Assembly: GCF_036208045.1 (NCBI RefSeq)
Contig: NZ_CP121472.1
Span: 682,001 to 746,000, forward strand
Direction: 5' to 3'
DNA length: 64,000 bases
Origin: Thiorhodovibrio winogradskyi
Lineage (GTDB): Bacteria; Pseudomonadota; Gammaproteobacteria; Chromatiales; Chromatiaceae
Part shown: in pieces, positions 1,718 through 22,165 of the stretch
Layout of the letters: every line of letters starts with the position of its first letter
Position numbering within the stretch: position 1 is the first letter of the stretch
Notes under the pieces: generated by a model
Database searches by the model: none
What the model saw: the letters and a program-made list of their open reading frames with translations, nothing else
What the model was told of the DNA's origin: nothing
Position numbers and translations under genes: made by a program

Positions 1718-4700
1718 GCTGCCTCCTTCTGGTCGGACCTGAACAACTGGTCGAGGCGTTCGATAACGGCAAGCGGTGGCCGATCCGACCAGACGCCAGC
1801 GCTGGAGCCCTGCTCCGGATGCATCCCGCGCAGGAACAGATAGCGCACGCCGCCGAAGTGCGTCTCGTAGTGGTAGCCCGGCAGGCGTTGGCGCAGGTAG
1901 CGATGCAGGGCCAGGGTGTAGAGCAGATATTGCAGGTCGTAGCGATGCGCGCGGATGGCCTGGGCCATGCCCTCTTGGCGATAGGCGGCAAAGGTGCGCC
2001 CGAGCCGATTGGATTTATAGTCGACCAGGTAATAGCGCGCGTCGTGGCGGAACACTAGATCGATGAAGCCGCGCAGCAACCCGCGCATCTCAGCGAAGGT
2101 CAGTCCATCGGCGATGCCGGCATAACGCGCGTCGCCAGACAGCGCGGTGGCCAAGGCCGGCGGGCTCAGCAGCGACACCGGCAGATGAAACTCAAGCTCG
2201 TCGAGCCGGTCGGCACGGGCGATAGCGCGCAGGCAAGGCTCGCCGGCTTCGTCCAGTGGCGTGTCCAGCACGCGTTCCACCAGGGTAGCCAATCCCTGCT
2301 GCCAGTTCTGGCCTTGGTCGCCTTGAAGCTGGGCCAGGGGACCGAAACGCGCGCTGAGTCGGGCAATCAGCGCCAACAGCTGATCGCGCCCAGCCGCCTG
2401 AAAATCGAGCAGCTCAAACAGCTGATGCACCAGCTCGCCGAAGCGGGTGCCAGCGGGCAGATCGAAGACCGGATCTGGCGGCGCGCTTTGGTCATCGATC
2501 AGTGCATCGGCGTCCGCCGCCGGGGTGGGCGCGGCCACGGCATCGTGATCCGGCTGCTCGGGGTCGCGCCCGGCGATCAGCCCGGAGTAGCTGGTGACGC
2601 GCCAACGGCTTGCCGCCTCCAGGGGCCGGGTCAATGACGCTGGCGCCAGCGAACTGGACGCATTCGCGCGACCTTGCCAGTGGTGTCCGGCATCCTCCTC
2701 CACCTCGCCAATCAGGATGCCATCCGGCGCGCCCGCGGCCAGGCGCTCGAGATCGGCTCGAATGCCGGCGTCGTCCAGCTGCTTGAGGCGGTTCTTGGGC
2801 TCGAGCGCGCTCGAGGACGCGTCCTGATGCAGCAAATAGGCCAGCCCCGAGCCTTCCGCGCCATTGACCTTGCCCCAGCCCAGGATGCAGAGCTTGGCCG
2901 CGCGGGTGACGCCGACGTAGAACAGGCGCAACTGCTCGGCCAACTGCTCCACCCTGGCCAGCGCGCGATGGGTGTCGATCTCTGGCGAGCCCAGGTCCAG
3001 CAGCAGATCCCCCTTGTCGCGGTCATGGAACAAGGGCGGTGGCTTGCGTTTGTTGTCCCCCTGGTAATAGGACCAGGGAAAGGGCATCAGCACCACGGGA
3101 AACTCCAGTCCCTTGGATTTGTGCAGGGTCATCACGGTCACTAGGCCGTGATCGCTCTCCAGTCGCAGCTGATCGTCCTCCGCGCCGCCGCGGGTTTCGG
3201 CGCCGCCGGCCCGCTGCCCGCGAAACCAAGTCAGCAGCGCGGGCAGGCCGCGATGCTCGCGCGCGGCGACTTGCAGCAATTCGGCCAGTTGCAGGACGTT
3301 GGTCATGCGCCGCTCGCCATCGGGGCGCGCCAGCAGCCGCCGGGGAACGGCTTCCCCGTCCAGTAGCGCCTGGAAGGCGACCATGAAGCCGCGTGTTTCC
3401 CACAGCTCCCGATAACGCAGAAAGCGCGCCGTCACCGCCTCCCAGTCGCGCTCCTGTTCGGCGAGCCTGGCCAGGGTGGGGGCATCGACGCCCAGCAGGC
3501 CGGTGGCCAGGGCCGCGCGCAGCAGCGGCTCGTCGCCCGGGGTGGCGATGGCCTCGAGCACCAGCCCCATGGCCTCGGCGTCCTCGGAGTCGTAGACCGA
3601 GTCCTCGCTCAGGCTGACACTGCCGACGCCACGCTCGCGCAGCGCCTCCTGCACCAGCTCGCCCTCCGCGCGCGAGCGCACCAGCACGGCAATGTCGGCC
3701 GAGGTCAGCGCGCGATCACCCAGGGTCGCCTGGCCCGCATCCGCCAAGGTAAGCAGTTCGGCGACGCGTTCGGCACAATAGGCCGCGAGCGCCGCTTTGG
3801 CGGCCACGGCGCGAATGCAGCCCTTGGGGTTTTTTGACGCATTTTGTTCGGTGACCCGCAGATGGCGAATCTCCAGCGGGATGGGCTCGGTGCCGCGGAT
3901 GCACAGCGGTTCCTTGTCCGCGCGCGGGCTGGGATCAATCTCCTCGTAGCTGATGTCGGGGTCGAACAGGAAGGGGTTCTCCGCCGCCTGGAACAGCCGG
4001 TTGAAGGCGCCGACCAGGCGGCTGCTCGAGCGCCAATTGGTCGCGAGGGTAAAACGCGCGGTTTCGGGCGTCTGCCGCTTGGCGCGCATGTAGGCGAAGA
4101 TATCGGCGCCGCGAAAACCGTAAATGGCCTGCTTGGGGTCGCCGCACAGCAGCAAGCAGGCATCCTGCCGGCCGCCATGAATCGCCTGAAAGATGCGCGC
4201 CTGCGCCGGGTCCGTGTCCTGGAACTCATCGACCAGGGCGACCGGCAGTCGGGTGCGAATCCGTTCGGCGAAAGCGACACCACCCGGGCTTGCAAGCGCG
4301 CGATCGAGACGGCTCAGGAGATCGTCGAAGAACATCGCGCGCAGCTGGCCCTTCTCGCGCTCCATGGCGGCGCGAATGCTCTCGCGGGCGCGGCGCAAGA
4401 AGAGTGCGCGCGGCAGTGTTGCCAGCTGAGCATGCAGGTTCTGGATCTGCTCGCACAGGTCGAAGATCAGGTGCTGGGGTATCTCGGCTTCGGGCTTGGT
4501 CTTCTCGGCGATCATGGTTGAGGTCAGCCGCTCGAAGGAAGTCGGCAGGCTTGTCGGCAGCTCCTTGAGCCTTGCTACCTCGTCGCCGGCTTCGAGGGCT
4601 GCCTGGCGAACATTGCGATTGTATGACCGGTGATTGATCACGCTGCCATCCTCGAGAATCGCGGCCACCTCTTCTTTCCCCGCATGCCAGGCGTGCCCAA

Positions 4701-5373
4701 ACTGCTCCAACAGCTCCAACAACTCGGCACGCGTGCTCTCGAGCGATTCCTCGGTGACATCCGGCAGCAGCCTCAAATCCTCGCTCGCCAGGGTGCGGTC
4801 GAGGTCTCCTAGCAGCCGGTCTGGCCCTTCCGACCAGTGCGCGGCAATCCATTCCACATCCTCGGGGGAAGCGGTCGCCACCCGGGCGCGCCAATAGTCT
4901 GCCGCGCCCTGGCGCCGCAGCGGTCGGTCATCGGTCATGAACTCGGCTGAGAAGGTGATGCCGGACTCGAAGGCAAAGGCCTCCAGCGTGCGCTTGCAAA
5001 ACCCATGGATGGTATGAATCGCGGCCTCGTCCATGCGCGCGAGTTGATCGACCAGAAACCGCGTGGCCTCGGCCGGGTCGCTGACCGCGCCGAGCAATGC
5101 ATGCAGCACCGGGTCTTTGTAGGCAAGCGGACCGAGGTCGGGCTGCGCCAGCCAGGACAGCGCCTCGCCGATGCGCGCGCGCACCCGCTCTTTAAGCTCC
5201 TGCGTGGCCGCCTCGGTGAAGGTCACCACCAGGATTTGATCGACGCTATGACCCGCCTCGATCAGCAGCCTCAGATACAGGGTGGCGATGGTGAAGGTCT
5301 TGCCGGTTCCGGCGCTGGCCTCCACCAGCACGGTGCCATGAAGCGGCAAGGTCAAGGGGTCCGCCTGTTTCAT
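1714..5373 (-). CDS. recB: RecB, exodeoxyribonuclease V beta subunit
   Basis: 3'-5' helicase and nuclease subunit of RecBCD, 1219 aa, the usual family length. UvrD-type helicase motifs appear in order: Walker A EASAGTGKT (residues 18-26), Walker B VDEFQDTD, motif III GDPKQAIYGFRGAD, TNWRSS, motif V TLHKSKGLEFPVV and motif VI LFYVGVTRA. The C-terminal nuclease domain shows GFIDLVF followed by YLVDYKSN, the D...DYK catalytic core, near residues 1105-1120. It overlaps recC upstream and recD downstream by 4 nt each (ATGA), so the three subunits are made from one coupled message. The order recC-recB-recD lacks the ptrA gene found between recC and recB in Escherichia coli. Confidence 0.97.
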   Translation of the reverse strand: MKQADPLTLPLHGTVLVEASAGTGKTFTIATLYLRLLIEAGHSVDQILVVTFTEAATQELKERVRARIGEALSWLAQPDLGPLAYKDPVLHALLGAVSDPAEATRFLVDQLARMDEAAIHTIHGFCKRTLEAFAFESGITFSAEFMTDDRPLRRQGAADYWRARVATASPEDVEWIAAHWSEGPDRLLGDLDRTLASEDLRLLPDVTEESLESTRAELLELLEQFGHAWHAGKEEVAAILEDGSVINHRSYNRNVRQAALEAGDEVARLKELPTSLPTSFERLTSTMIAEKTKPEAEIPQHLIFDLCEQIQNLHAQLATLPRALFLRRARESIRAAMEREKGQLRAMFFDDLLSRLDRALASPGGVAFAERIRTRLPVALVDEFQDTDPAQARIFQAIHGGRQDACLLLCGDPKQAIYGFRGADIFAYMRAKRQTPETARFTLATNWRSSSRLVGAFNRLFQAAENPFLFDPDISYEEIDPSPRADKEPLCIRGTEPIPLEIRHLRVTEQNASKNPKGCIRAVAAKAALAAYCAERVAELLTLADAGQATLGDRALTSADIAVLVRSRAEGELVQEALRERGVGSVSLSEDSVYDSEDAEAMGLVLEAIATPGDEPLLRAALATGLLGVDAPTLARLAEQERDWEAVTARFLRYRELWETRGFMVAFQALLDGEAVPRRLLARPDGERRMTNVLQLAELLQVAAREHRGLPALLTWFRGQRAGGAETRGGAEDDQLRLESDHGLVTVMTLHKSKGLEFPVVLMPFPWSYYQGDNKRKPPPLFHDRDKGDLLLDLGSPEIDTHRALARVEQLAEQLRLFYVGVTRAAKLCILGWGKVNGAEGSGLAYLLHQDASSSALEPKNRLKQLDDAGIRADLERLAAGAPDGILIGEVEEDAGHHWQGRANASSSLAPASLTRPLEAASRWRVTSYSGLIAGRDPEQPDHDAVAAPTPAADADALIDDQSAPPDPVFDLPAGTRFGELVHQLFELLDFQAAGRDQLLALIARLSARFGPLAQLQGDQGQNWQQGLATLVERVLDTPLDEAGEPCLRAIARADRLDELEFHLPVSLLSPPALATALSGDARYAGIADGLTFAEMRGLLRGFIDLVFRHDARYYLVDYKSNRLGRTFAAYRQEGMAQAIRAHRYDLQYLLYTLALHRYLRQRLPGYHYETHFGGVRYLFLRGMHPEQGSSAGVWSDRPPLAVIERLDQLFRSDQKEAA

Positions 5374-8300
5374 GATGACTTCCGCTCCTCGCCGGCCTTG
5401 ATCTGCCGCGACACCTCAGCGATGGGCTGGTAGATGCGCAACGCCAGCGCCTTGAAGGGATCGGCCAGGGCATCCTGACCGCGAAAGGCCATGCGCACCG
5501 CCAGTTCTTGGCTCTCGCCCGCGGCGTAATAGCCCCCGTCCCAACTGTTGGCAACGGCCTCGTCGGTTTGTTGGTCGCACCAGGCAAAGCTGGTGGCCGG
5601 GAAGAAGGGCACCGGTCGGCTGAGGCCTTCCCAATAGAGCGCGAGTAGATCGGCCAGCTGATCCACGGGATCTTGCACGGCATCCAGCATCAGGGTGACA
5701 TCCTCGGCGACATAGGCAGTAGAGGCTTTGACGCCCGCCGGCGCGGCGGCGCACAGCACCAGATGGCGCACCCAGGCATTCAAGCGATCCTTGGGCTTAA
5801 GCTTGGCCGGGCGTGTCAACACCAGGCCGGCCGTGGTCAGCGGGTGCAGCTCGCCAACCAAGCGGAACTCGCCGATCTCCAAGTCCACATCCACTGGGTC
5901 GAGCGGCTCGCCGAGCAAAGGCGTCCGACGCGCGATCAGGTCATCGACCAGCGCCAGTTCCTGCCGGGTTTGCTGCGCGCCAAAGGTGCCGTGCGGCAAG
6001 ACGCCCGCGGCGCGCAGCGTCGCGAGGATGTCGTCATCCCCAAACCCGGCTTGGCGGCTATCCAGCAGCGCCGTGCGCAGGCCGTAGCGCGCGAGACCGG
6101 TGCCGACAATGAAAGGCTCGTCATCGGATGGCGCGTCCTCCGAGCGCGGCAGGCGCAGACCGATGCGCTTGCGCAGAAAATGGCCGGAGGGGTCGCGCAG
6201 GAAGCCCAGCAGATCATGCAGCTCGACCTCCCTTGGGGATGGCCTTGGGGATAGATCGGGGGCCGCCAAGGGCTCCTCGATGAAGGGCGCGAGGCGGCTA
6301 TCTTCCAGGGCTCGCGCCGCCTCGCACCAGCGCGTGGAGTAACTCGCCACCGCCGGCCGGACGCCGTCGAAATGCGCCGGGCTGAAGGGCTGCAAGGGAT
6401 GATGCACCACCAGGCGGTCGCGGGGCGTTTCGGCCCCTTCGATGCGGAAGGCGGCGTCGATATAGTCGAGCACTTCGTCGACCACGACGCTGCACGCGCG
6501 CGGGCTGTTATCGCGCGGACCATGCGCGGCCCAGCTGATGTGCACCGCATCGCGCGCGGCGAGCAGGCATTCGAGAAACAAATAACGGTCGTCGCGCCGG
6601 CGTGAGCGGTCGCCGCGCCGCGGCTCGGTGGCAATGCGATCGAACGACAACGGGCGCTGCGCGCGTGGAAAGGCATCGGCCTCCATTCCCAGGATCGCGA
6701 CCACCCGGTGCGGGATGGAGCGCATGGGCACCATGTTGGTGAAGGTCACGCGTCCGGTCAGAAAACCATAGGCCCCGCCGGGCTCGTCCAGTGCTTGGCG
6801 AATGAGCGCGCCCACCAGGTCGCTGCTGATGGGCTCCTCGACGCCGGCCAGCCGCTGCTGGGTCAGCGTCTGTTCCATGGTGGCGCGCACGGCATCGAGC
6901 AGCGCGAGTTCGGCGTCCTCCTCGGCGTCGAAAAAGGTCTCGAGCAGCGCGTTGATCCTCTGCATCCAGTCCGCGCCGGTGCGCGTGTGCTTGAGCCGAT
7001 GGCGCCACTGGCTCAGGGCATCGACCAGGCTCTGGAGCGCGCCGAGCACATCGACATCGCCGGCGTCGATATCCGCATAGGGCCGCACGCCTTGGTAGGG
7101 TCGGTCCGCCCACTCGGGCGGCATGGCGTAGCCAAGAAACAACCGCGCAAGGCCAAAGGCCCAGGTGTTCAACGCCTCGGCGGGCAGACCCAGCGCGCGG
7201 CGGCTGTCCGCGTCCAGGCCCCAACGGATACCGGCATCGTTGATGAACGACGCCAGGCGCTCGCGGCTCGACTCCGTGACTCCGAATCGCCGCTGCAGCG
7301 CGGGCACCGCGAGCAACGCCAGCACATCGCTCGCGGTGAGGCGCGATTGGTGCAATCCGAGCAGGGTCTTGATCGCCGCGACCAAGGATTGGCCCGCGCC
7401 GGGCTTGCGGTCGGCCAGGGTCCAGGGCAGGCGCAGCGTCGGTTCCGCCGCGCCGAAGACGGCCTCCACATAAGGCGCGTAGAGATCGATATCTGGGGCC
7501 ATGACGAGGATGTCGCGCGGCTCCAGACCGGGCAGCTTCTCGACCAGATCCAGCAACCGGTCATGCAGCACCTGCACCTCGCGCAGCGGACCATGGGCGC
7601 CGTGCACGCGAAACGACAGGTCGTCGGGGCTGATGCTGGTGCGGGTCGTGGCGTCCAGGGAACGGCGGTCGGCCAGATTGAGCAGATCCCGCTGCAGGCA
7701 GGCCAGCAGGCTGTCGCCCTCGGGCTCGAGAAAATGCTCGCTGTCCTCGCCACCCAGCTCCAGCAGCTGATCGAGAAACACCTGTCCGGCATGGCCAAGG
7801 GAGGCGAGCAGCGGATTGCCGATGTCCAGCATCCCGGTCGGATCGGGCAGAGCAGCCCGCCGCGCCCGCGCCCGGCGGCGCGCCAGCCGGCGCTCGTCCT
7901 CGACATCGGCCCAATATTCGCGACAGGGGTTGAGGTAGTAGAGCACCACCTCGGTGTGATCGGCGAGCGCCCCCAGCATGCGCACCTGCACCGGCGCCAG
8001 CGCGCCCACGCCGAACAAGCTCACCGTCTTGGGCAAGGGGACAGCAGGCGGCGTACCGGCGGTGATGGCTTGCTCGAACTCCGCCACCAAGCGCGCCCGA
8101 TGAGCGCTGCCGACGCCTGCCGCGACCGCGCGCCACAGGATGGCTTGCCAATCCTCGGGCGCGGCTCCGCGCTCGAAATCGAGGCAGAGGTCATGGCGAT
8201 AGACCAGGTATTGATCGAACAGGCTCGCCAATTGCGCGGCCAGCTCGAAGCGGCGCAGGTCGGATAAGTCCGCGTCCAGATAGCGCTTCAAATCGGCAAA

Positions 8301-8618
8301 GGCCGGTGCGGCGATCATCTCGGGCAAGAGCCGAAACATCCGCCAGGTCAGGGCGCCCTGCTGATAGGCGTCTTGTTCCGGAGCCTCCGGCAGCCAGCTC
8401 TTGAGCATCCGCCAGAAAAAGCTCGCCGGCAGCGGGTAGTCGATGTTCGCCGCGATGCCCCGGCGCATCGCCAGCTGCTGCGACACCCAGCGCGCCATGC
8501 CCTGATTGGGCACGACAATGACCTCGCGCGCGAAGGGGTCCTGGCCAGCCGCGTGCTCTTGCGTGGCCAGGACATCAATCAGCTGCTCGAGCCGGTTGGA
8601 ATGATGGACCCGAAGCAT
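5370..8618 (-). CDS. recC: RecC, exodeoxyribonuclease V gamma subunit
   Basis: Chi-recognition and scaffold subunit of RecBCD, about 1082 aa. The N-terminus MLRVHHSNRLEQLIDVLA and the following VVPNQGMARWVSQQLA are characteristic of RecC. The start is placed at 8618 rather than 14 codons upstream (8660) because a GGAGG Shine-Dalgarno sequence sits 8 nt before this ATG. No Walker A is present, as expected for RecC, whose helicase-like domains are inactive. The stop overlaps the recB start (ATGA). It is the first gene of the recCBD operon; a WYL regulator ends 77 nt upstream on the same strand. Confidence 0.95.
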   Translation of the reverse strand: MLRVHHSNRLEQLIDVLATQEHAAGQDPFAREVIVVPNQGMARWVSQQLAMRRGIAANIDYPLPASFFWRMLKSWLPEAPEQDAYQQGALTWRMFRLLPEMIAAPAFADLKRYLDADLSDLRRFELAAQLASLFDQYLVYRHDLCLDFERGAAPEDWQAILWRAVAAGVGSAHRARLVAEFEQAITAGTPPAVPLPKTVSLFGVGALAPVQVRMLGALADHTEVVLYYLNPCREYWADVEDERRLARRRARARRAALPDPTGMLDIGNPLLASLGHAGQVFLDQLLELGGEDSEHFLEPEGDSLLACLQRDLLNLADRRSLDATTRTSISPDDLSFRVHGAHGPLREVQVLHDRLLDLVEKLPGLEPRDILVMAPDIDLYAPYVEAVFGAAEPTLRLPWTLADRKPGAGQSLVAAIKTLLGLHQSRLTASDVLALLAVPALQRRFGVTESSRERLASFINDAGIRWGLDADSRRALGLPAEALNTWAFGLARLFLGYAMPPEWADRPYQGVRPYADIDAGDVDVLGALQSLVDALSQWRHRLKHTRTGADWMQRINALLETFFDAEEDAELALLDAVRATMEQTLTQQRLAGVEEPISSDLVGALIRQALDEPGGAYGFLTGRVTFTNMVPMRSIPHRVVAILGMEADAFPRAQRPLSFDRIATEPRRGDRSRRRDDRYLFLECLLAARDAVHISWAAHGPRDNSPRACSVVVDEVLDYIDAAFRIEGAETPRDRLVVHHPLQPFSPAHFDGVRPAVASYSTRWCEAARALEDSRLAPFIEEPLAAPDLSPRPSPREVELHDLLGFLRDPSGHFLRKRIGLRLPRSEDAPSDDEPFIVGTGLARYGLRTALLDSRQAGFGDDDILATLRAAGVLPHGTFGAQQTRQELALVDDLIARRTPLLGEPLDPVDVDLEIGEFRLVGELHPLTTAGLVLTRPAKLKPKDRLNAWVRHLVLCAAAPAGVKASTAYVAEDVTLMLDAVQDPVDQLADLLALYWEGLSRPVPFFPATSFAWCDQQTDEAVANSWDGGYYAAGESQELAVRMAFRGQDALADPFKALALRIYQPIAEVSRQIKAGEERKSS

Positions 8619-8695
8619 GGGCTTGGCCTCCGCTGACTCAACGGATCTGTCGGGACGCATGGCTTGATCGCCGTGCGGCTTGGGTTGGCTGGGGA

Positions 8696-9727
8696 TTAAA
8701 GCACATTCGCGTAAAGCGTCGATGCCTTGTTGATCTGCGCGGCCACATTGCGCCGCATCGCATCCGGCGCCACCACCTCCAGATTGTCCCCGGCCGCCAG
8801 CAGCCAGCGCAACAGCGCGCCGCTTGAGGGGACAGTCGCGTGCAACCGCAAATCGAAGTCGCTGTCCTCGGGCTCGGGCAGGGTTTGCTGTCCCTCGGCC
8901 AAGGGGCAGGCCTCCAACACATCGGTCAGGTAGCCCCGCACGCGCAGCTCCAAGGCGATGGTCTCGCCACAGCCGAAGTCCACCAGACCTTCCGCGATGG
9001 CCCGGTCCAGGTCGAACCCCGCGGCCGCGCGAGCCGCGTCCTCGGTCAGCTCGACGCGCACCATCCGATGCAGGGCATAGAACCGCACATGCGCGGGCTC
9101 GTTGTTCTTCAGCGCCACCAGGTAGATCACGGGACCGCGCTGCACCAGGGCTTGCGGATGCAAGCGTGGCTTGCGGAGCTGGCCCGTGGCTTTGCGATAC
9201 TTAACGGACAAGATGCGTTGCTCGGCCACCCCCGTGATCACGGTGCTGAGAATCCGCGGGTGCACCTTGGCCGGAATCAGCCGCTGCTCGGCGGACAGAA
9301 TCCGCAGGCGCTGATCATTCAGTGCTGGCACCTGGTCGGACACAACCAGCTGGCGCCACAGCGCCTCGAGCCGCCCCTTGGGCACCAGATCGGTCACCGT
9401 TTGGTCAATCAGCTGGCGGGTATAGGCGATCACGTTCGGATCATCGTCCCCCGCCTCGGCCCGCCGCCGATAGCGCAACGGCTTGCCACCGGGGTTGACC
9501 GCGACGATGCGCTCGTCGCGAATCAGCTCGGTCAGGTCCCGCTGCAGCCGGCGCCGCCGCGCGGCCGCCGAGGCCTCAGTGCCGTATTCATCCTCCAACA
9601 GCCGCTCGAGCCGCCCAACATCGACGCAGCGCTGCGGCGCCGTCTGGGGTGGCGAGATTCGAGCGAACAGGGCTTGCAAGCGCTCAATGCGCTCCTGATG
9701 GGTCGCACTCATGCCGAAAATTCTCAT
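8696..9727 (-). CDS. WYL-domain transcriptional regulator
   Basis: About 343 aa. The N-terminal ~90 residues (ERIERLQALFARI ... RRRRLQRDLTELIRDERIV) are a winged helix-turn-helix of the WYL type. Residues ~150-230 contain the WYL core, here GPVIYLVALK followed by FYALHRMVRVEL, and the C-terminal ~80 residues fit the WCX extension. WYL proteins are known to bind nucleic-acid ligands, in several cases single-stranded DNA, and to control DNA-damage or phage-defence genes. It lies directly upstream of recCBD on the same strand, so control of that operon is plausible but inferred. Start uncertain: ATG 9727 or ATG 9712; a longer open frame to 9868 has non-conserved N-terminal sequence. Confidence 0.82.
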   Translation of the reverse strand: MRIFGMSATHQERIERLQALFARISPPQTAPQRCVDVGRLERLLEDEYGTEASAAARRRRLQRDLTELIRDERIVAVNPGGKPLRYRRRAEAGDDDPNVIAYTRQLIDQTVTDLVPKGRLEALWRQLVVSDQVPALNDQRLRILSAEQRLIPAKVHPRILSTVITGVAEQRILSVKYRKATGQLRKPRLHPQALVQRGPVIYLVALKNNEPAHVRFYALHRMVRVELTEDAARAAAGFDLDRAIAEGLVDFGCGETIALELRVRGYLTDVLEACPLAEGQQTLPEPEDSDFDLRLHATVPSSGALLRWLLAAGDNLEVVAPDAMRRNVAAQINKASTLYANVL

Positions 9728-9953
9728 GGCCAAAGGATGGCATGAGTATAGGACAGAGTTTGACGTGAGTGCTTTGAGCAAAGAGGTGGGGGCTGTACGT
9801 TGGCGAAAATCCAGCGGCCAGGTAAGACGAGCTGTCTGGATTTTCGCCCACGCACCTTGACAGTCCATTGAAATCCTTGTTTAACTTCATGCTTACCAAT
9901 CCGTACAACAGTGGCGGAAAGAATGACAATCCGGATCGACTGATAGAGGTGAC

Positions 9954-13739: not shown

Positions 13740-14354
13740 TTACCCCACGATAAACCCGCACAGCATTCCCCGCTCAAGCCACGTGTGCTGCCGCCACTTT
13801 CTATCTTCCGCCGCGTGCGCTTGTTCATCCGCCCGCTGGCTTAACAATGCCCCCAACCGCGCCAGCGCCAGCCGCCGATTCGTGTGCTGGGAGCGCTCTT
13901 TCTGTGCCAGCACGCTGAGTCCGGTCGGCCGATGGGTGATCCGCACGGCGCTCTCTGTGCGATTGACATGCTGGCCGCCGGGGCCGGACGCGCACTGGGT
14001 TTCGATGCGCAGGTCGTGCTCGCGCCAAGTATAGACCACCGGTTCCGTGAATGCCAAGATACGGACAAACCAGTTCTTGCGCTTGTGATTTGGGCGATAG
14101 GGGCTGGCGCCGATCCATTGGATGGTGCCGAGCCAATCGGCGACGCGCGCCCGAACGTCGGGGCCGCTGACGCGCAGCAGCACCGAGCGCGCGTCGCCGG
14201 CGTGCTGGCCGGGGGTGCGGTCGATCTCCTCGACAGCGAGACCGCGGTCGGTCAGCTCGGCGGTCTGACGCGGGGCGAGCTGGCCGACCACCCATTCGCA
14301 CTCGTCGGGATAGCGACCGGCGGAAAGTTGCAGCCAGAGCCTTGGGGTGCTCAT
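13740..14354 (-). CDS. prfH: Peptide chain release factor homologue PrfH
   Basis: 204 aa. [20 protein letters not shown] contains the GGQ motif (residues 126-128) that triggers peptidyl-tRNA hydrolysis. The stop-codon-reading domain 2 of RF1/RF2 is replaced by a shorter N-terminal half, which defines RF-H. The start overlaps the rtcB stop (ATGA). RtcB-PrfH pairs are known to act together on ribosomes damaged in the decoding centre: PrfH frees the stalled peptide and RtcB reseals the cut 16S rRNA. It is the last gene of a three-gene coupled operon. Confidence 0.93.
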
Positions 14355-15760
14355 CGCCGGGCCTGTTTGAATTTGCGCTTGGATTTGGGCTCGGAATTTG
14401 GCTTGGACTTGCCAGCGCCGCGCGCTTTGCTCGGCCCTTTGATCGCTCCGGCGCGATCAGCACGTCGCACCTTGTAGGTCAGCACCGGTCGCAGGGTGGC
14501 GATGATCTGGCAGAGTCCGGCCGCGACCAGGTCGGCGACCACTTGTTCGATGCCTTTATAGGCTTCCGGGGCTTCGTCATAGAGCAGTTCCTTGTCGTCG
14601 CAGATGACCTGGCTGTCGAGCGCGGTGGTGCGCAGATCCTCGGGACGCTGGCGGGCGCTAAGACGCGGGCGGGCGTCGCCGCGTTTCCATTTGCGCCCAG
14701 CGCCATGGGCGAGGGAGCGCAGACTGGTGTCGGTCGTGGTGCTGGTTTCGTGCCCGGACTGGATCAGGGGCTTGACCAGATAGGACAGGGTGCCGCGCGA
14801 GCCGGGGATGACCACGGGGCCGCGATCAGCCGGGGCGGCGCCTTTGCGATGCAGCCGGAGGGTCTCGCCGGCCCAGTCAGTGGGTTCGACCAGGTTGTGC
14901 CAGACATCGAGCCGTCGCTCGCCGTCGGCGTTGAGGGCGTCGAGCAGGCGCCGGGCGATGAGCCGACGATTGGCTTCGGCCCAGTGGATGGCTTGGTCGT
15001 GCGCCTGGAGGTAGTCGCGCGCGGCGGGGGAATCCGGCGCCAGGCCCTGATGGCCGTGCGCGTCGATCACGGCGCGCAGCTCGGCTTCGCCAAGACCGCG
15101 CGAGCCGCTGTGGACTAGGAGCAGGAGATGATCGGAGTCAAGATTCAGCGCGGCGACGGCGTCTGGATCCAATACCTCGGCCAGCGTCTGCAATTCGGCG
15201 AAATGATTGCCGCCGCCGATGGTGCCAAGTGAGGCATCGAAATCCGTTGGCACCAAGCCCTGCTCGGCGCGCCAGTGCGCGAGGTCGCCGCTCCAGGGGC
15301 CTTCGAGATCGGTCAAGCGCTCGCTGGCGCGGGCGGGCTTGAACTTGCGCATCGCCAGATCGGTCTGCCACAGCCCCATGCCGCAGCCGATGTCGTTGCC
15401 GACCAGGGCGGGATAAATCCTGTCCGCCAGAAAAGCCGCGCCAATGGGATAACCCTTGCCGGGGTGCAGGTCGGGCAGACCGACAGCGGCGCGCATGCCG
15501 GGCAATGCGGCGGTGTGCTCCAGTTGGCGCAGCGCCTCGCCTTCGATCCAGGTGTCCGGGGAGGCGATGAGGTTGACCTGTGATGTGGCCGGACTTGGAT
15601 GGCCGTTTTGCCCGTTCATCCGGGCGCGCCGCGCAATTGCCTCGGGGGTCAAGGCGTCTGTGTCTTCGATAGGCAGGGTCGCTTGCGCAAGCGGTCGCTG
15701 GCGCGCGCGGACCCGGTCTTCCTCTGTCATGCCGAGCTGTCTGTTACGCATCCGGTTCAC
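14351..15760 (-). CDS. rtcB: RtcB-family RNA ligase paired with PrfH (RtcB2 type)
   Basis: 469 aa. GTP/Mn-dependent ligase that joins 3'-phosphate or 2',3'-cyclic phosphate ends to 5'-OH RNA. Seen: [10 protein letters not shown] with the metal-binding Asp and Cys, [26 protein letters not shown], and [10 protein letters not shown] carrying the His that becomes guanylylated. The last motif has KWKR where canonical RtcB (including the second copy in this window) has RMSR. A lysine/arginine-rich tail of ~40 residues ([19 protein letters not shown]) is likely an RNA or ribosome contact. Coupled by ATGA overlaps to the upstream FtsZ-like gene and the downstream prfH. Confidence 0.93.
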
Positions 15761-16692
15761 CCCGTCACACCCAGCACCCGCCGGTCGCGCGGCCAGTCCT
15801 CATGCAAGAAGCCGCTCGCGACCAGCCGGGCTTCATCGCGCACTGGCAAGCGCATCTCCAGCTCGTCCATCAGGTCGAAGAATTCATGGATGCTCAGCCC
15901 CTTGCCGGCATGCACGAAGGCGAGCAAGTCTCCGGGGGGATGCACCAGTCCGCGCTGCCGCAACCGCTGCAACGCGCGCTCGCGCTGATCGGGGCGATGC
16001 CACAGGGTGGCAGCGGTACGAAATTGTTTCGTGCGCTTCAAACACTCGCGAATGTCGCCCGGGTCGTAACCGATAGGAGTGCGGGATAACAGCAGCGTGC
16101 CGTCGATGAGCAGTTGGATCGCCAGCCGCTGGGCGGCGGCCATGCCGGGCGCTGGCTCGATAACGGCATCAAAGGCGCTGTCCAACGCGGCTTGTTCCGT
16201 TGCGTTCCAGGGCATTGAGGCGAGGTGTCTTGGACGGTTGATCACCACCGCGACGCAGTAGACGCATTCCGGCGGTCGCCAGCCTGGGGCATGCCGGGCT
16301 AGGTCAGCAACGGCCTGCGGATCACTGGCATCGATCACCACCACGACGTAGTCGCCCGGCGCGACCTGAGCGTGCAGCCAATGGGTAACGGCCCGGGGCT
16401 CCTGTGCCGACTGCGCCATCAGCTCGACTTGGTCGACATCGGTGCGACGCTTCAGGGTTTGGATAAAGGGGCTCGCACCGGCACCAAGGCCGATACAGCA
16501 GGATCGCGAGGGAGGGAACAGGGCCGTCATGACAAAGCCGCCGCCGGCTTCTTCAGAACGGGTCGCCGTCGAGTGCGGCTCGAACGGCCGCAACAGGGTT
16601 GTGAACTTGTTGCTCGCGGCCCCTACGCCAGCGCCACCCAGCGGCCAGAGCAGGCCAGACCCGAGTGCTTGCAGCCATTGACGGCGATTCAT
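15757..16692 (-). CDS. Divergent FtsZ/tubulin-like protein with Tat-type N-terminus
   Basis: 311 aa, first gene of the rtcB-prfH operon, with a strong GGGAGG Shine-Dalgarno. The N-terminus MNRRQWLQALGSGLLWPLGG resembles a twin-arginine signal, though the hydrophobic part is short. The rest looks to me like a degenerate FtsZ fold: CCIGLGAGASPFIQTLKR (compare FtsZ IGVGGGGGNAV), VVVVIDASDP, then LLIDGTLLLSRTPIGYDPGD in the place of FtsZ ITRPGLINVDFADV, and GDLLAFVHAGKGLSIHEFF in the place of the FtsZ C-terminal NITGG.DL...E region. The FtsZ GTP signature GGGTGTG is not seen. The family assignment is inference from pattern; otherwise it is a hypothetical protein. Its coupling to RtcB suggests a role in the same RNA-repair pathway. 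Confidence 0.55.
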   Translation of the reverse strand: MNRRQWLQALGSGLLWPLGGAGVGAASNKFTTLLRPFEPHSTATRSEEAGGGFVMTALFPPSRSCCIGLGAGASPFIQTLKRRTDVDQVELMAQSAQEPRAVTHWLHAQVAPGDYVVVVIDASDPQAVADLARHAPGWRPPECVYCVAVVINRPRHLASMPWNATEQAALDSAFDAVIEPAPGMAAAQRLAIQLLIDGTLLLSRTPIGYDPGDIRECLKRTKQFRTAATLWHRPDQRERALQRLRQRGLVHPPGDLLAFVHAGKGLSIHEFFDLMDELEMRLPVRDEARLVASGFLHEDWPRDRRVLGVTG

Positions 16693-16905: not shown

Positions 16906-17307
16906 TCAGAGCCAGTCTTCGCAGCGCAAGCCCGGGACGCGTTCAAACTCCCGGCGATTATTTGTCACCAAAACAGCATTTTCCGCCACCGCGTGGGCTG
17001 CGATCAGCAGATCCATGTTGCCGATCGGCGTGCCGGCGCGTTGCAGCTGAGCGCGCAATTGTCCGTAACAGCGCGCCGCGGCTTCGGTCCACGCCAGCAC
17101 CCTCAGCCGCTGATAGAAATCCTCAATGTCGCTCAGAATCGCGGTGCCGCGGGTTGGATGCAGCGCGGCCCCAAATTGCAACTCGGCAAGGACGATGGTC
17201 GAGATGGCGAGGTTGTCATGTCCGACTTGATCGAAGCGTTCCTTGACGGCGATTGGCCGTTGTCGGATCACGAAGCTACAGGTGTTGGTATCAAGCATCC
17301 AGGTCAT
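16906..17307 (-). CDS. vapC: VapC-family PIN-domain toxin
   Basis: 133 aa. The PIN ribonuclease core shows the acidic residues in MLDTNTCSFVIR (first Asp), LAELQFGAAL (Glu) and GNMDLLIAAHAV (Asp), and ends with LVTNNRREFERVPGL. VapC enzymes cleave tRNA or rRNA. The gene overlaps vapB by 17 nt from ATG 17307, or by 8 nt if ATG 17298 is used; neither has a strong ribosome site, consistent with coupling to vapB. An upstream extension to 17394 is open but unlike the family. Confidence 0.93.
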   Translation of the reverse strand: MTWMLDTNTCSFVIRQRPIAVKERFDQVGHDNLAISTIVLAELQFGAALHPTRGTAILSDIEDFYQRLRVLAWTEAAARCYGQLRAQLQRAGTPIGNMDLLIAAHAVAENAVLVTNNRREFERVPGLRCEDWL

Positions 17308-17536
17308 GGAAGCACGCTCGGTCCTGTGGTGGCTCTTGGGCGCGATCCTGGAGGAAATCCTCGGGGGTTGCGCTGGGCTGGGTGAAAAAATCATCCCACC
17401 CGCTGGACTTCTCGCGCAACACCACCGTGTTTCCGACTTTCTCGATCAGAACCTCGGTGCCTTTCATGCGGAACTCGGCCGGCAGTCGCACGGCCTGGCT
17501 ACGACCATTCTTGAAGAGTTTGGCGGTTGCGGTCAT
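17291..17536 (-). CDS. vapB: VapB-family antitoxin (AbrB/MazE-like)
   Basis: 81 aa. MTATAKLFKNGRSQAVRLPAEFR is the swapped-hairpin AbrB DNA-binding fold of VapB antitoxins. EVLIEKVGNTVVLREKSSGWDDFF continues the family pattern, and the C-terminal third should bind VapC. First gene of the vapBC operon. It is immediately downstream of a 600-bp gene-free region. Confidence 0.93.
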   Translation of the reverse strand: MTATAKLFKNGRSQAVRLPAEFRMKGTEVLIEKVGNTVVLREKSSGWDDFFTQPSATPEDFLQDRAQEPPQDRACFHDLDA

Positions 17537-18141: not shown

Positions 18142-18567
18142 ATGCCGAAAAACACTGACCGCCTTAGCTCCCACGATTGGCTCGTGCGCATCGGCCTCGA
18201 TGAGGACGGCCAAAACGATCTGCTATTAGAGGACGAACCACTCGACAACCTGACCGGCGATCCCTCCTCGGCGCTGCGCGAGCGCTTCCAGCAATGGCAG
18301 CAGCGGCACCGTTTCGCGCCCGGCGATCTGGTGGTCTGGAAGCCGGGACTGATGAACAAGCGCTACCCGCGTGCCACCCAGCCAGCGGTGGTGCTGGAGG
18401 TGCTCGATCAGCCGGTGTTCGACAGCGAACGGGATGCCGGTAGTCCCTACTTCCGCGAGCCGTTGGATCTGGTGCTTGGGCTGTTCGTCGATGAAGGGCC
18501 GAATCGCGGCGACTTTCTGAACTGGCATTACGACAGTCGCCGCTTTCAACCCTGGCAGCCCGACTGA
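18142..18567 (+). CDS. Conserved hypothetical protein, partner of AAA+ ATPase
   Basis: 141 aa, start supported by AGGAGA 6 nt upstream. The N-terminus is acidic (LDEDGQNDLLLEDEPLDNL). The centre reads FAPGDLVVWKPGLMNKRYPRATQPAVVLEVL, which looks like a small SH3-like beta barrel. I do not recognise the family. It lies 80 nt before the two-module AAA+ gene on the same strand, separated by a hairpin, and probably serves it as adaptor or substrate-recognition protein; this is inference. Confidence 0.75.
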   Translation: MPKNTDRLSSHDWLVRIGLDEDGQNDLLLEDEPLDNLTGDPSSALRERFQQWQQRHRFAPGDLVVWKPGLMNKRYPRATQPAVVLEVLDQPVFDSERDAGSPYFREPLDLVLGLFVDEGPNRGDFLNWHYDSRRFQPWQPD

Positions 18568-18598: not shown

Positions 18599-18647
18599 AA
18601 AACATATGTGAGTTAGGACATTGGCAATTTCACATCAGGAGAAACGC

Positions 18648-20882
18648 ATGACTGACAACCTTTACCGCTGGCGCCCCGACCTAAACGCTGTCACAGCCCA
18701 TGAGCTGCGCCTGGCGCGCTTTGCGCTGGGGCTGCTATTTAGCGACAAGCGCGTGCGCGAGCGCCTGGAGGATCGCGATTTTCTGCGCGCGCTTTGGGAT
18801 CTGACCGGGACGTTGCTGCCGACTCGGTTCCGTGCCGAACTTTATGCGCAGGCAGCTGACACTGACGAGGACGACGAGGATGACAAGGACCTAAGTGATC
18901 TGATCAGGAAGCTGGAAGCGGAGCTTGAGCGCCCCCTTCCCGAGCCAGATGAGAATGAGCACTTGTTCTCTAGCCGTGGTCCACTGCGCAAGTTTTACCG
19001 GGGCCTGCCACGCCGGATGCTCAAGCAATTGGATCAGGCCGACGACAATCGCTGCATTTCGCCGGTGGCCAGTCTGCTCAGCCAGTCCCTGGGGCTGGAC
19101 GCCACCGCCGAACGCATCCTCGAGTACCTCGACCTGCGCGACACCAGCAGCGCCTTTGACGAGTTGGTGAACGAAGGGCGTATCAATCGGCATGTGCGCG
19201 GTGATGTGCGCCATTGCGTCGCGACCATGCTGCGCATCGATGAGCGGGCGCTGCGCCGTTCCGTGCAGAAAAGCGCTCCGCTGCGCCAGCTCGGATTACT
19301 GGACTATCGTCGTAACCATCCGGATGTCGAGGATCTGCTGAAGCCGAGCGATCTCTTGAGCGATCTGTTTGAGGCCGAACCACAGGATGAAGCCGCGCTG
19401 CTCGCCCGCCTGGTCGAACCCGCCCCGGCGGGGGACTGGACACCGGCGGCCTTTCCGCATCTGCGCGAGCGTGCGCTGGAGGTGCAAGAGACCCTGGCCG
19501 CCGCCGCACGCTCGGGCGTCGCTGGCGTCAATGCACTCTTCCATGGCCCGCCGGGCACCGGCAAGACCGAGCTGGCGCGCGCGCTGGTCGCAACCAGTGG
19601 ACTGACCGCCTATCAGGTGGCCAGTACCGAGGACAACCGCGACGGCCAGGAGGGCGGGCTGGATCGTGACGGGCGCCTGTCCGCCTACCTGGTCGCGCAA
19701 CGCCTGTTGGCCAAGCGCCGGGACGCGGTGCTGATCTTCGATGAGGTCGAGGACGTGGTCACCCAACAGGACAGCTTGTTCGCGCTGCTCGGTGGTGCCG
19801 GCCCGACCGGCGAGCAAAAAGGCTGGATGAACCGCATCCTGGAAGAGAATCCAGTACCGGCGATCTGGATCAGCAACCAGACCCGCGGCATGGACCCGGC
19901 CTTTCAGCGCCGCTTCCTGCTGCCCGTGGCCTTCGTCACCCCGCCGCGCTCGGTGCGCTTACAAATGGCCGAGCGGCATCTCGGGGATCTTGGTCTGCCG
20001 CCGGCCTTGCTCGACGACCTGGCAGCCGACGACAAGCTCGCCCCGGCCACCCTGGGTGCGGCGCGTCGCCTGCTCGACTTGCGCCCGGATGCGCCCAAGG
20101 AAACCACGGTGCGGCGCAACATCGCCGCCATGCGCCACTTGTTGCATGGCGCGCCCGCGCCCCGGCGGCGGGAGTCGGCGACGGATTTTGATGTCGCTTA
20201 TCTGAACCTGGCCGGCGGCATTGCGCCCAGCGCCCTGGTGCGCGCACTGGAGCGCGAGGGCAGCGCCCGGCTGTGCTTCTATGGCCCGCCGGGAACTGGC
20301 AAAACCGCTTTTGCCGAGGTATTGGCCGAGGCGCTGGATCGGGAACTGATCGCCCGGCAGGCATCGGATTTGATCTCACCCTATGTGGGCGAGACCGAGC
20401 AGAATCTGGCGCGGCTATTCGTCAGTATTGACCCAGAGCGGTCGGTGCTCTTTTTGGATGAAGTCGATAGCTTTCTGGCGGATCGCCGTCAGGCGCAGCG
20501 CCCTTGGGAGCGCACCCAGGTCAATGAGCTCTTGCAGCAGATGGAGCGCTTCCCCGGCATCTTCATCGCCGCCACCAATTTAATGAGCGGTCTGGATGCG
20601 GCGGCATTGCGGCGGTTCGACTTCAAACTGCATTTCCGCGTGCTCAAGCCAGAGCAACGGCTTGGATTGTTCGCGCGGGAAGCGCTCGGCGACGCGCACG
20701 CTGTGGTGCCTAGCAATCTCGCCTCGCATTTGGAGCGGTTGGAGTCGCTGACACCGGGGGATTTTGCCAATGTGAAGCGCCAACAGCGGCTGCTCGGTGA
20801 GCGGCTGGAGCCGGAAGCCTTTCTGCGGCGGTTGATGGCGGAGTGTCGGTTGAAGGAGACGGGGATGCGCGAAACAGCTTAG
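18648..20882 (+). CDS. Two-module AAA+ ATPase
   Basis: 744 aa from ATG 18648 (AGGAGA 5 nt upstream; the frame is open to 18621). The first ~290 residues are a helical domain with an acidic stretch (TDEDDEDDKDLSDL). Module 1 has Walker A GPPGTGKTELAR (about residue 300) and Walker B VLIFDEVED (about 362). Module 2 has GPPGTGKTAFAE (about 545), VLFLDEVDSFL (about 601), sensor 1 AATNL and an arginine-finger-like ALRRFDFK. Module 1 ends with a similar PAFQRRFLLPV. Such enzymes remodel protein complexes; the substrate is unknown. It resembles stand-alone ClpA/Cdc48-like machines only in architecture. Confidence 0.85.
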   Translation: MTDNLYRWRPDLNAVTAHELRLARFALGLLFSDKRVRERLEDRDFLRALWDLTGTLLPTRFRAELYAQAADTDEDDEDDKDLSDLIRKLEAELERPLPEPDENEHLFSSRGPLRKFYRGLPRRMLKQLDQADDNRCISPVASLLSQSLGLDATAERILEYLDLRDTSSAFDELVNEGRINRHVRGDVRHCVATMLRIDERALRRSVQKSAPLRQLGLLDYRRNHPDVEDLLKPSDLLSDLFEAEPQDEAALLARLVEPAPAGDWTPAAFPHLRERALEVQETLAAAARSGVAGVNALFHGPPGTGKTELARALVATSGLTAYQVASTEDNRDGQEGGLDRDGRLSAYLVAQRLLAKRRDAVLIFDEVEDVVTQQDSLFALLGGAGPTGEQKGWMNRILEENPVPAIWISNQTRGMDPAFQRRFLLPVAFVTPPRSVRLQMAERHLGDLGLPPALLDDLAADDKLAPATLGAARRLLDLRPDAPKETTVRRNIAAMRHLLHGAPAPRRRESATDFDVAYLNLAGGIAPSALVRALEREGSARLCFYGPPGTGKTAFAEVLAEALDRELIARQASDLISPYVGETEQNLARLFVSIDPERSVLFLDEVDSFLADRRQAQRPWERTQVNELLQQMERFPGIFIAATNLMSGLDAAALRRFDFKLHFRVLKPEQRLGLFAREALGDAHAVVPSNLASHLERLESLTPGDFANVKRQQRLLGERLEPEAFLRRLMAECRLKETGMRETA

Positions 20883-20912: not shown

Positions 20913-21031
20913 TGCAGCCTGGCCGAGGGCAACAGGCGATCCACCGGTTTGGATTGCAAGGTTCCAGTGAGTGACCATCACTCTGCTACAATGAAGACGA
21001 ATCGTAACCAGCATTGGTTTGGAGAATAACC

Positions 21032-22165
21032 ATGTTTTTCCGACTTCCCGTGAAGATCATTCTCTTGATTCTCGCCTGCATCTCCGCCGCTGTGATCTGG
21101 CAGCAGGCACAATTGGCGGTTTTGGCGCTGGGTCGTATTGACCCGGTTCCTGAGGTTGAGACGCTGATCGCCGAGGAGCGATACGCCGAAGCGGCCGATT
21201 ACCTCGATTTTTTCCTGAACTACGATTATGTCAGGGACGACCCAAACGCACAGGCGTTGCATGCCGAAATCGAAAAAGTGCGCGGCAGCCTTTCCTATCG
21301 GGCAAGCAAGCTTGGCGAGGGCTTGTTTGAGGGCACCAGCGATGAAGCCATCGGCAAGGCGGCAGGAGTGATCACCGATTTTTTCGTTATTGGCGACCTG
21401 CGCGATCTTGCCGCGCAGGGCTCCAACTGGGTGCAGGGTGAAGAGGTCGATGAGGTGGTTGCGGCACTGGCCGCCATCGGCGTAGTCGCGACCGCGGCTC
21501 AGGTCGCCAGCGCGGCGGCCACGGTTGGCACCGCGGGTGCGGCGGCTCCAGCAGCGGCCGGTACGACGGGGGTGAAAGGGGGAGTGACCATCCTGAAAGC
21601 CGCCCGCAAGCTCGGCAAACTGCCGCCTTGGCTTGGAAAAACGCTCGTCAACAGCGCGCAAACCGTAAAAAAGACCAAGAAACTCGATTCCGTCACCGAT
21701 CTCTTCAACGATGTTTACCGGCTGGCTCGCACACCTGGCGGTCTGAATCTGTTGAGCAAGACCAGCGATGCTGCCTCCCTTAGACGGATGGCGAAAGCAG
21801 CTGAAACCTTTGGCGATTCCACCGCCACCCTGTATCGCATCGGCGGTCCGACTTTTTTGAAAACCGCCGCTCGGGCGAAGCAACTGGGAACCGAGAGCAT
21901 CAAGCTGGCCTCAACCTATGGGGTGAAAGGGCTCCGCGTGCTGGACAAAATCGGGCCGACGCGCTTTATCAAATATTCCGCCCGCGCTTCGAAAATCGCT
22001 TACAAAGGTGATTTTTTTGACTTGATCGCGCGTTTCCTTGCCATGCTGCCTACCTGGCTCCTCTACCTCCTGTGCGGCCTAGGTATTGTTGCCTGGATAC
22101 CTTGGCAGTGGTTGAAGCGGCTTGGTCAGTCACTCATTCCCGAGAAACAAATCCCAGCCGCTTGA
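21032..22165 (+). CDS. Membrane protein of unknown function, Ala/Gly-rich core
   Basis: 377 aa from ATG 21032 (GGAGAA upstream; GTG 21014 is less likely). An N-terminal membrane segment (VKIILLILACISAAVIW) is followed by an acidic helical region, then a hydrophobic Ala/Val/Gly-rich stretch at about residues 148-185, then a lysine-rich amphipathic region, and a C-terminal membrane segment (LPTWLLYLLCGLGIVAWI). I recognise no family. The hydrophobic core between charged helices is the pattern seen in pore-forming or polymorphic-toxin proteins, but no such domain can be named. It may belong to the same transcription unit as the AAA+ gene, 150 bp upstream. Confidence 0.7.
   Translation: MFFRLPVKIILLILACISAAVIWQQAQLAVLALGRIDPVPEVETLIAEERYAEAADYLDFFLNYDYVRDDPNAQALHAEIEKVRGSLSYRASKLGEGLFEGTSDEAIGKAAGVITDFFVIGDLRDLAAQGSNWVQGEEVDEVVAALAAIGVVATAAQVASAAATVGTAGAAAPAAAGTTGVKGGVTILKAARKLGKLPPWLGKTLVNSAQTVKKTKKLDSVTDLFNDVYRLARTPGGLNLLSKTSDAASLRRMAKAAETFGDSTATLYRIGGPTFLKTAARAKQLGTESIKLASTYGVKGLRVLDKIGPTRFIKYSARASKIAYKGDFFDLIARFLAMLPTWLLYLLCGLGIVAWIPWQWLKRLGQSLIPEKQIPAA

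Follow-up and report, generated by a model that had tools for sequence, protein, structure and literature searches.

What kind of protein is encoded at the head of an rtcB-prfH operon in Thiorhodovibrio winogradskyi, and why would it stand there? The question is raised by a stretch of 64,000 nucleotides (NZ_CP121472.1, positions 682,001 to 746,000, analysed as a whole and called the window below), where the minus strand carries an open reading frame (ORF) of 311 amino acids (aa) ahead of the two genes. The original prediction had read its product as an FtsZ-like protein lacking a GTP signature, with a twin-arginine-type N-terminus and coupled to RtcB and PrfH. All three ORFs were found where it had placed them, and the window rtcB and prfH, adjacent and on the same strand, score above curated cut-offs (TIGR03073/NF007153 and TIGR03072). 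We regard it as very probable that the 311-aa protein, here called FtsZl, derives from FtsZ, has no GTP loop, carries an N-terminus of the twin-arginine translocation (Tat) type and belongs to a family housed in islands around an AAA+ ATPase, all of these statements being taken jointly. The features on which this rests are the following.

15757..16692, minus strand: FtsZ-like protein (FtsZl), 311 aa; ORF, homologs and FtsZ homology
14351..15760, minus strand: rtcB2, RNA ligase of the release_rtcB type; TIGR03073 463.9 bits, cut-off 271.8
13740..14354, minus strand: prfH, peptide chain release factor H, with an altered C-terminal tail; TIGR03072 205.7 bits, cut-off 166.65
16612..16692, minus strand: twin-arginine (Tat-like) N-terminal tag MNRRQWLQALGSGLLWPLGG; sequence rule and family consensus
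16315..16338, minus strand: position of the FtsZ T4 GTP loop, with IDASDP and no GGGTG; within-family alignment and element order
16054..16074, minus strand: T7-loop equivalent IGYDPGD; family alignment
15757..16107, minus strand: FtsZ C-terminal domain homology, residues 196-311; hhalign and hmmsearch against the PDB

The predicted FtsZ-like blocks proved real: the quoted motifs GLGAGASP, GYDPGD, AFVHAGKGLSIHEFF and MNRRQWLQ are all present in the 311-aa protein. Searched alone, the window protein matched nothing significantly in Pfam, NCBIfam, PADLOC or the PDB sequences, and Pfam FtsZ_C was matched singly by 4 of 26 family members at E<=1 (best 0.001). A profile of the 26 aligned FtsZl homologs (A7), searched against 177,635 PDB sequences, returned 48 at E<=1, of which 47 were FtsZ (best E 4.2e-11) and the remaining one GTPase Der (E 0.096). 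Profile-profile comparison of the family with nine host FtsZ sequences scored 95.6%, and the C-terminal half alone scored 97.3% in hhalign (E 1.6e-11), against 0.1-0.5% for reversed decoys (0.1% for the C-half decoy). The N-terminal half alone had no detectable match to FtsZ (hhalign, 0.3%). Chance resemblance is ruled out by the PDB profile matches and the reversed decoys. Judged by these profiles, FtsZl is an FtsZ-derived paralog, with homology claimed for the C-terminal domain and the T7 region. The earlier description as a tubulin-like protein therefore stands for the C-terminal domain, while the N-terminal result leaves a tubulin fold unproven for the protein as a whole.

Structure models bear on the same point. 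Two AlphaFold models built from three alignment rows each had low confidence, with a predicted local distance difference test score (pLDDT) of 54 for the window protein and 51 for the Allochromatium homolog L037, and strands and helices alternate in both. With the low-confidence L037 model, Foldseek placed FtsZ at ranks 1-3 (E 2e-4 to 6e-4, template modelling scores 0.35-0.40), and FtsZ made up 22 of the 50 best matches listed. The window model (pLDDT 54) retrieved generic Rossmann folds, with no FtsZ among the 50 matches listed. The proposed comparison with FtsZ thus came out positive by profile for the C-terminal half, whereas Foldseek gave FtsZ matches of low template modelling score for L037 and none among those listed for the window model. 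From the models, a Rossmann-like N-terminal half is plausible.

What was lost and what was kept is consistent across the family. The T4 signature GGGTG occurs in 0 of 26 aligned members, in agreement with the predicted lack of a GTP signature; the T4 position was placed by within-family alignment and element order, the N-terminal half being unalignable to FtsZ by profile. The T7-loop Asp residues are conserved at position 210 in 25 and at position 213 in 24 of the 26 members, and a C-terminal DIPFFL/DIPAFL peptide like that of FtsZ is kept in three of the 26 loop-less homologs (L012, L037 and L086; G and L numbers are our handles for genomes and regions). FtsZl therefore shares with FtsZ (PF00091 and PF12327) the C-terminal domain, the T7 D..D pair and, in these three, the peptide-like end, and differs from it in the absent T4 loop, the profile-undetectable N-terminal half, the N-terminal tag and the island context. 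Other diverged FtsZ-like families have been described: in the available part of Makarova and Koonin 2010 (PMC2875224), FtsZl1 and FtsZl2 both retain a GGGTG(S/T)G loop, and FtsZl1 has no recognisable FtsZ C-terminal domain and in most cases bears a coiled coil. The present family reverses FtsZl1, keeping the C-terminal domain and losing the GTP loop; membership in FtsZl1 or FtsZl2 as characterised there is ruled out by the absence of GGGTG from all 26 members.

The N-terminus was compared with the typical form of a Tat signal by a rule of our own, which asked for RR, two residues and a hydrophobic residue near the start, followed by at least 12 uncharged residues. The rule was passed by 20 of the 26 aligned homologs, including the window protein, vs 4 of 528 background ORFs; the background ORFs, each 200 aa or longer, were drawn from these regions and not from whole proteomes, and any early Met was allowed as a start. 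Two of the four passing background ORFs were themselves tagged copies of FtsZ. The family consensus reads M-[KNQH]-R-R-x-[LF]-L-Q-A-[LF]-G. The FtsZl N-terminus is, as had been proposed, a predicted Tat-type signal.

We surveyed two genome sets, 210 genomes of the window's family and 369 of its class (those shown include four of the window's family). A seven-homolog profile had matches in 42 of the 210 family genomes, and the linkage counts use 41 loci in 26 of these, the 16 genomes with only weak matches (E ~1e-5 to 1e-3) having been dropped; in one of them, G003, the match lies in true FtsZ, and the rest are taken to be FtsZ or chance. In the class set, a five-row profile matched only in the genome of the window and, as a relic, in G125, which belongs to a different family. 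The wider A7 profile matched at E<=1e-6 in 310 of the 369 class genomes, but it also matches FtsZ itself and so gives no class-wide distribution of FtsZl: the two listed matches that were compared (G035 and G038) lie inside FtsZ, and most listed rows are FtsZ-length frames. Named relatives occur in Allochromatium humboldtianum, a Thiorhodovibrio-labelled metagenome genome and Ca. Thiodictyon syntrophicum; the last belongs to Chromatiaceae by its record, and the first two are members of that family as well. No FtsZl relative was present in the viral contigs or phage records searched, and a plasmid search gave one record, from Ca. Thiodictyon syntrophicum. A further FtsZl relic lies elsewhere in the window's genome (L014, G000:C1:4652857-4653281), where by eye it is joined to, or broken up by, a transposase-like ORF.

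FtsZl genes cluster with rtcB2 and, more often, with a tandem AAA+ ATPase. Eight of the 41 loci lie within 3 kb of rtcB2, where 0.04 would be expected, and 22 lie within 12 kb of the ATPase gene, where 0.47 would be expected, both expectations assuming random placement and treating related genomes as independent. Conversely, 7 of 20 rtcB2 loci have FtsZl within 3 kb, 9 of 20 lie within 12 kb of the ATPase gene, and 10 of the 16 rtcB2-bearing genomes also have FtsZl. The rtcB2-linked copies belong to four genera by their labels (G000, G001 with three, G057, G526, G444 and G019, the last convergent). In the first five of these genomes FtsZl is upstream of rtcB2-prfH on the same strand, closely spaced in G057 and G526, and the same gene order recurs across several genera. 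In G529 an FtsZl gene is followed by prfH with rtcB missing, and in G125 a deleted FtsZl remnant directly precedes rtcB and a shortened prfH. This recurrent association of FtsZl, rtcB2 and the ATPase rules out the reading in which rtcB and prfH form an operon of two genes and FtsZl merely happens to be next to it. The coupling first proposed is thus supported in part: linkage recurs in four genera plus the relic, and the co-occurrence count exceeds expectation, but it is not exclusive, as 33 of 41 FtsZl loci lack an rtcB2 within that 3 kb (some contigs being short). FtsZl relatives are cargo genes of Chromatiaceae islands around a tandem AAA+ ATPase, some with rtcB2-prfH. The window carries many of the island components (a WYL gene, FtsZl-rtcB-prfH, a VapBC-like pair, a 141-aa gene, the ATPase gene and a 383-aa protein), and its features around the operon are as follows.

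16906..17536, minus strand: VapBC-type toxin-antitoxin pair; ORFs, named by eye
18142..18567, plus strand: 141-aa protein, no Pfam match; cluster of n=22 members from 16 genomes
18621..20882, plus strand: tandem AAA+ ATPase; PF00004 in two stretches
21014..22165, plus strand: M383, a 383-aa protein with hydrophobic ends; no Pfam match
8696..9868, minus strand: WYL/WCX regulator; PF13280 and PF25583
22952-24148, minus strand: second RtcB, canonical type by alignment, ~7 kb from rtcB2
1714-8660, minus strand: recB-/recC-like genes beside the WYL gene; named by eye

Maps and single-linkage clusters of such islands cover regions, some of them overlapping, that were selected for FtsZl, the AAA+ ATPase or rtcB2; RtcB proteins of both types fall into one cluster, and unrelated multi-domain proteins were drawn into that of WYL. 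Of the 38 maps that show the ATPase gene, 21 have the 141-aa gene no more than 1 kb from it and 20 have a WYL-type gene (300-520 aa) no more than 3 kb from it, a distance that is 8 kb in the window. PP2C lies within 3 kb of the FtsZl gene in 7 of 35 maps. In five maps, one of them that of the window, a relative of M383 is found no more than 1.5 kb from an rtcB, which in the window is the second rtcB. The ATPase itself is matched at E<=1e-40 in 45 of the 210 family genomes (some only ~40% identical). Compared with GTPase/tubulin or MoxR-vWA conflict systems, which would have a TRAFAC/GAP1 GTPase, or MoxR together with vWA, it hits PF00004 best, with bpMoxR below cut-off and no vWA among the small fraction of neighbours scanned. 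The remaining cargo varies among rtcB2-prfH, the 383-aa protein, GmrSD, PDDEXK, or a 431-aa protein with PLD-like and SNF2 genes. In Allochromatium humboldtianum (L037:6838-16849) one strand reads AAA+, FtsZl, 431 aa, PLD-like and SNF2 helicase. Some islands have neighbours of defence type: Pfam matches exceed the cut-off for SNF2, GmrSD and PDDEXK and fall short of it for PLD-like and JAB, and several of these genes also have PADLOC matches. Proteins of ~880-910 aa (MPNYLYP...) are encoded near FtsZl genes in G444 (L088:8554-11187 and L089:12397-15120), the former with no Pfam or PADLOC match.

Is FtsZ the only host protein that these islands carry behind such a tag? Three tagged DnaB ATPase domains lie in rtcB2 islands (L124:12891-13877, L155:1501-2406 and L011:14077-14949). 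Each consists of the DnaB_C ATPase domain behind the tag, and Pfam finds no DnaB N-terminal domain. With E-value limits of 1e-45 and 1e-48 for the tagged DnaB and DnaA searches, and counting among the matches listed, tagged DnaB was matched from its first residue in three places (G553, G485 and G001); the other listed DnaB rows begin at about residue 32 or later at ~45-51% identity and are replicative DnaB by frame length. A tagged DnaA ATPase domain in the same G001 island (L002:2574-3500; G001:C1:435136-436062) sits between an FtsZl gene and a broken rtcB2 with prfH. It matches Bac_DnaA (E 9e-35) and no Pfam DnaA C-terminal domain, and over residues 60-299 it is 43% identical to a 453-aa frame at the genome start, presumably the host DnaA; among the matches listed, it was matched from residue 1 in G001 only.

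FtsZ itself also occurs intact behind the tag. In G527 and G529, such copies match Tubulin (E 4e-41 and 5e-42) and FtsZ_C (E 1.5e-28 and 6e-27) and carry GGGTGTG and a DYQDIPAFL tail, and across 42 aa their tag shares 71% identity with the tag of a loop-less homolog. They lie at L130:7648-8859 and L143:11091-12413 and are followed by a SIR2-family gene. The tagged intact FtsZ looks, from its sequence, like an intermediate between FtsZ and FtsZl. Ca. Thiodictyon syntrophicum has a tagged FtsZ on plasmid pTs485, annotated as cell division protein FtsZ, and a copy without the GTP loop annotated as a hypothetical protein. The RefSeq start of this tagged FtsZ lies downstream of the tag, so that translation of the tag there is only inferred. 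Annotation can hide the pattern, through a hypothetical protein label in one case and an FtsZ start set after the tag in the other.

Remains of a DnaB-like gene also revise the reported gene overlaps in the window. The predicted ATGA overlap of rtcB with prfH is present, whereas the junction of the 311-aa ORF with rtcB is GTGA and not ATGA. It depends on a doubtful GTG start within an N-terminal extension of rtcB that holds the following element.

15620..15736, minus strand: DnaB-like gene relic within the extended N-terminus of the rtcB ORF; matches the G001 tagged DnaB at 51% over 39 aa

The match spans residues 9-47 of the rtcB ORF, with 47% over 47 aa to the G553 copy. G001 has, between its FtsZl gene and rtcB, a DnaB-like gene that begins with a twin-arginine motif of its own; because this gene has been lost in the window and a remnant left, the overlap appears to be a deletion by-product and is possibly untranslated. 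An inherited overlap is ruled out by the relic. In three other aligned RtcB2 copies the nearest ATG is 5 to 16 residues before LIAS, and window rtcB has a Met near 15619, 16 residues before LIAS. This Met may be the natural start, in which case FtsZl and rtcB do not overlap. Motifs of the window rtcB are common to the three other RtcB2 copies and one canonical RtcB in the alignment.

Parts of this arrangement have precedents, which we cite from the sections of each paper available. RtcB2-PrfH protects E. coli against colicin E3 (PMC9223846). The window shares with the RtcB2-PrfH (RFH) module (PMC9223846, PMC1586002) both genes in the same order, and differs in having an FtsZ-derived gene upstream and, in some islands, a tagged DnaB gene. 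Accessory genes of RFH-RtcB include TPR, Pol-beta, ZnR and charged helical proteins (Burroughs and Aravind 2019, PMC6514570), and here likewise further genes accrete around the pair; the words 'FtsZ' and 'tubulin' are absent from the main text of that paper, its supplementary list excepted. GTPase-centric conflict systems combine GTPases with tubulins, HSP70 or vWA proteins (PMC7159879) and so share tubulin-superfamily proteins in a predicted conflict setting, whereas FtsZl recurs beside a tandem AAA+ ATPase and a WYL regulator; the available text of PMC7159879 nowhere contains the word 'RtcB'. No description of FtsZ joined to RtcB-PrfH was found in the open-access literature searched, which is a part of all literature, and the one co-mention of FtsZ and PrfH concerned a diplonemid mitochondrial proteome. 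FtsZl next to RtcB2-PrfH and the tagged copies of FtsZ, DnaB and DnaA are, with that scope, new.

FtsZ relatives are usually read as cytoskeletal GTPases. FtsZl, with its contact side kept, no nucleotide loop, a Tat-type N-terminus and a place in repair- and defence-type islands, invites another reading, and the tagged DnaB and DnaA domains of related islands point to a general principle of host-target mimics and not to a single odd gene. Phage proteins that hit FtsZ, DnaB or DnaA exist, and Tat can export hitch-hiker proteins. The best mechanism we can propose, tentatively, is that the tagged proteins act as baits, imitating host targets and trapping proteins of invaders. Each bait would keep the surface of an essential host machine favoured by invaders, its own machine function being dispensable; for FtsZ this surface would be the T7 face and the C-terminal domain, plus the C-terminal peptide in three homologs. 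Made alongside RtcB2-PrfH, which repairs cleaved ribosomes, the bait would bind invader-made inhibitors of division or replication, and the Tat signal would hold the captured inhibitors at the membrane or carry them out of the cytoplasm as hitch-hikers. We place this reading first because three cell-cycle machines are mimicked with one localisation-type tag, in islands with defence-type genes. The extension to a class of anti-invader modules, in which Tat-tagged baits made from FtsZ (including GTP-dead FtsZ), DnaB and DnaA act with RtcB2-PrfH in AAA+/WYL islands, binding invader inhibitors and taking them to or across the membrane, is doubtful as yet.

Several observations count against capture by tagged baits. 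Six of the 26 homologs fail the tag rule (Allochromatium, G032, G019, G023, G452 and one of G528), and neither the window protein nor its Allochromatium homolog was matched in PADLOC at E<=0.01. Among the matches listed, tagged DnaA is confined to one genome and tagged DnaB to three, and by eye both keep Walker-type motifs and may work as enzymes. The ratio of nonsynonymous to synonymous substitution rates (dN/dS) for residues 1-54 is 1.58 in one window-G001 pair (0.45 in the other), so that purifying selection on the tag region is not evident in the former. Broken or relic copies in G001, G000, G125, G524 and G525 also fit a dispensable passenger.

The retained T7 Asp pair in a protein whose GTP loop is gone can be read in a second way. 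FtsZl might cap host FtsZ filaments on their nucleotide face as a dominant-negative brake on the cell cycle, the tagged DnaB and DnaA domains poisoning replication, and so hold growth back for as long as RtcB2-PrfH is mending the ribosomes; the tag would then serve only as a membrane anchor. FtsZ, DnaB and DnaA all drive the cell cycle, and the DnaB without its N-terminal domain and the DnaA without its C-terminal domain suit such poisoning. A working Tat-type tag, however, would take the protein out of the cytoplasm, and only the nearby WYL genes suggest how the brake would be restrained. We consider this brake rather doubtful.

The shared strand and upstream position of FtsZl in five genomes, and its presence in 10 of the 16 rtcB2 genomes, would suit a partner in ribosome repair, with FtsZl scaffolding RtcB2 and PrfH on damaged ribosomes, perhaps as filaments. 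The pairing is loose, however: most FtsZl loci have no rtcB2 nearby, and FtsZl is missing from the 3 kb around 13 of 20 rtcB2 loci (again with some short contigs). The twin-arginine tag and the PLD-like and SNF2 neighbours in Allochromatium also sit poorly with a repair scaffold, and we judge it unlikely.

Could FtsZl instead be a decaying duplicate, carried in mobile or defence islands without a selected role? The broken copies and the elevated ratio in residues 1-54 would fit. Yet whole-gene dN/dS between the window copy and two G001 copies is 0.37 and 0.29, and that of the core 0.21 and 0.26; members ~20% identical to the window protein still have the T7 Asp pair and the tag, and the gene order recurs in several genera. 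We give a mere passenger a low probability. Finally, although the tag has the form of a Tat signal, it is improbable that folded mimics exit via Tat to act outside, for example on competitors, given that FtsZ, DnaB and DnaA are cytoplasmic and need GTP or ATP, that neither an immunity gene nor a domain for entry or adhesion was recognised among the few proteins scanned, and that the products of rtcB2 and prfH are cytoplasmic enzymes.

Two smaller observations concern the window. The C-terminal tail of prfH (13740-13790) differs from that of a homolog after LERG and looks frameshifted from the sequence. On the far side of the WYL gene, the start of the recC-like gene comes next to that gene in the window and also in G001 (L036).

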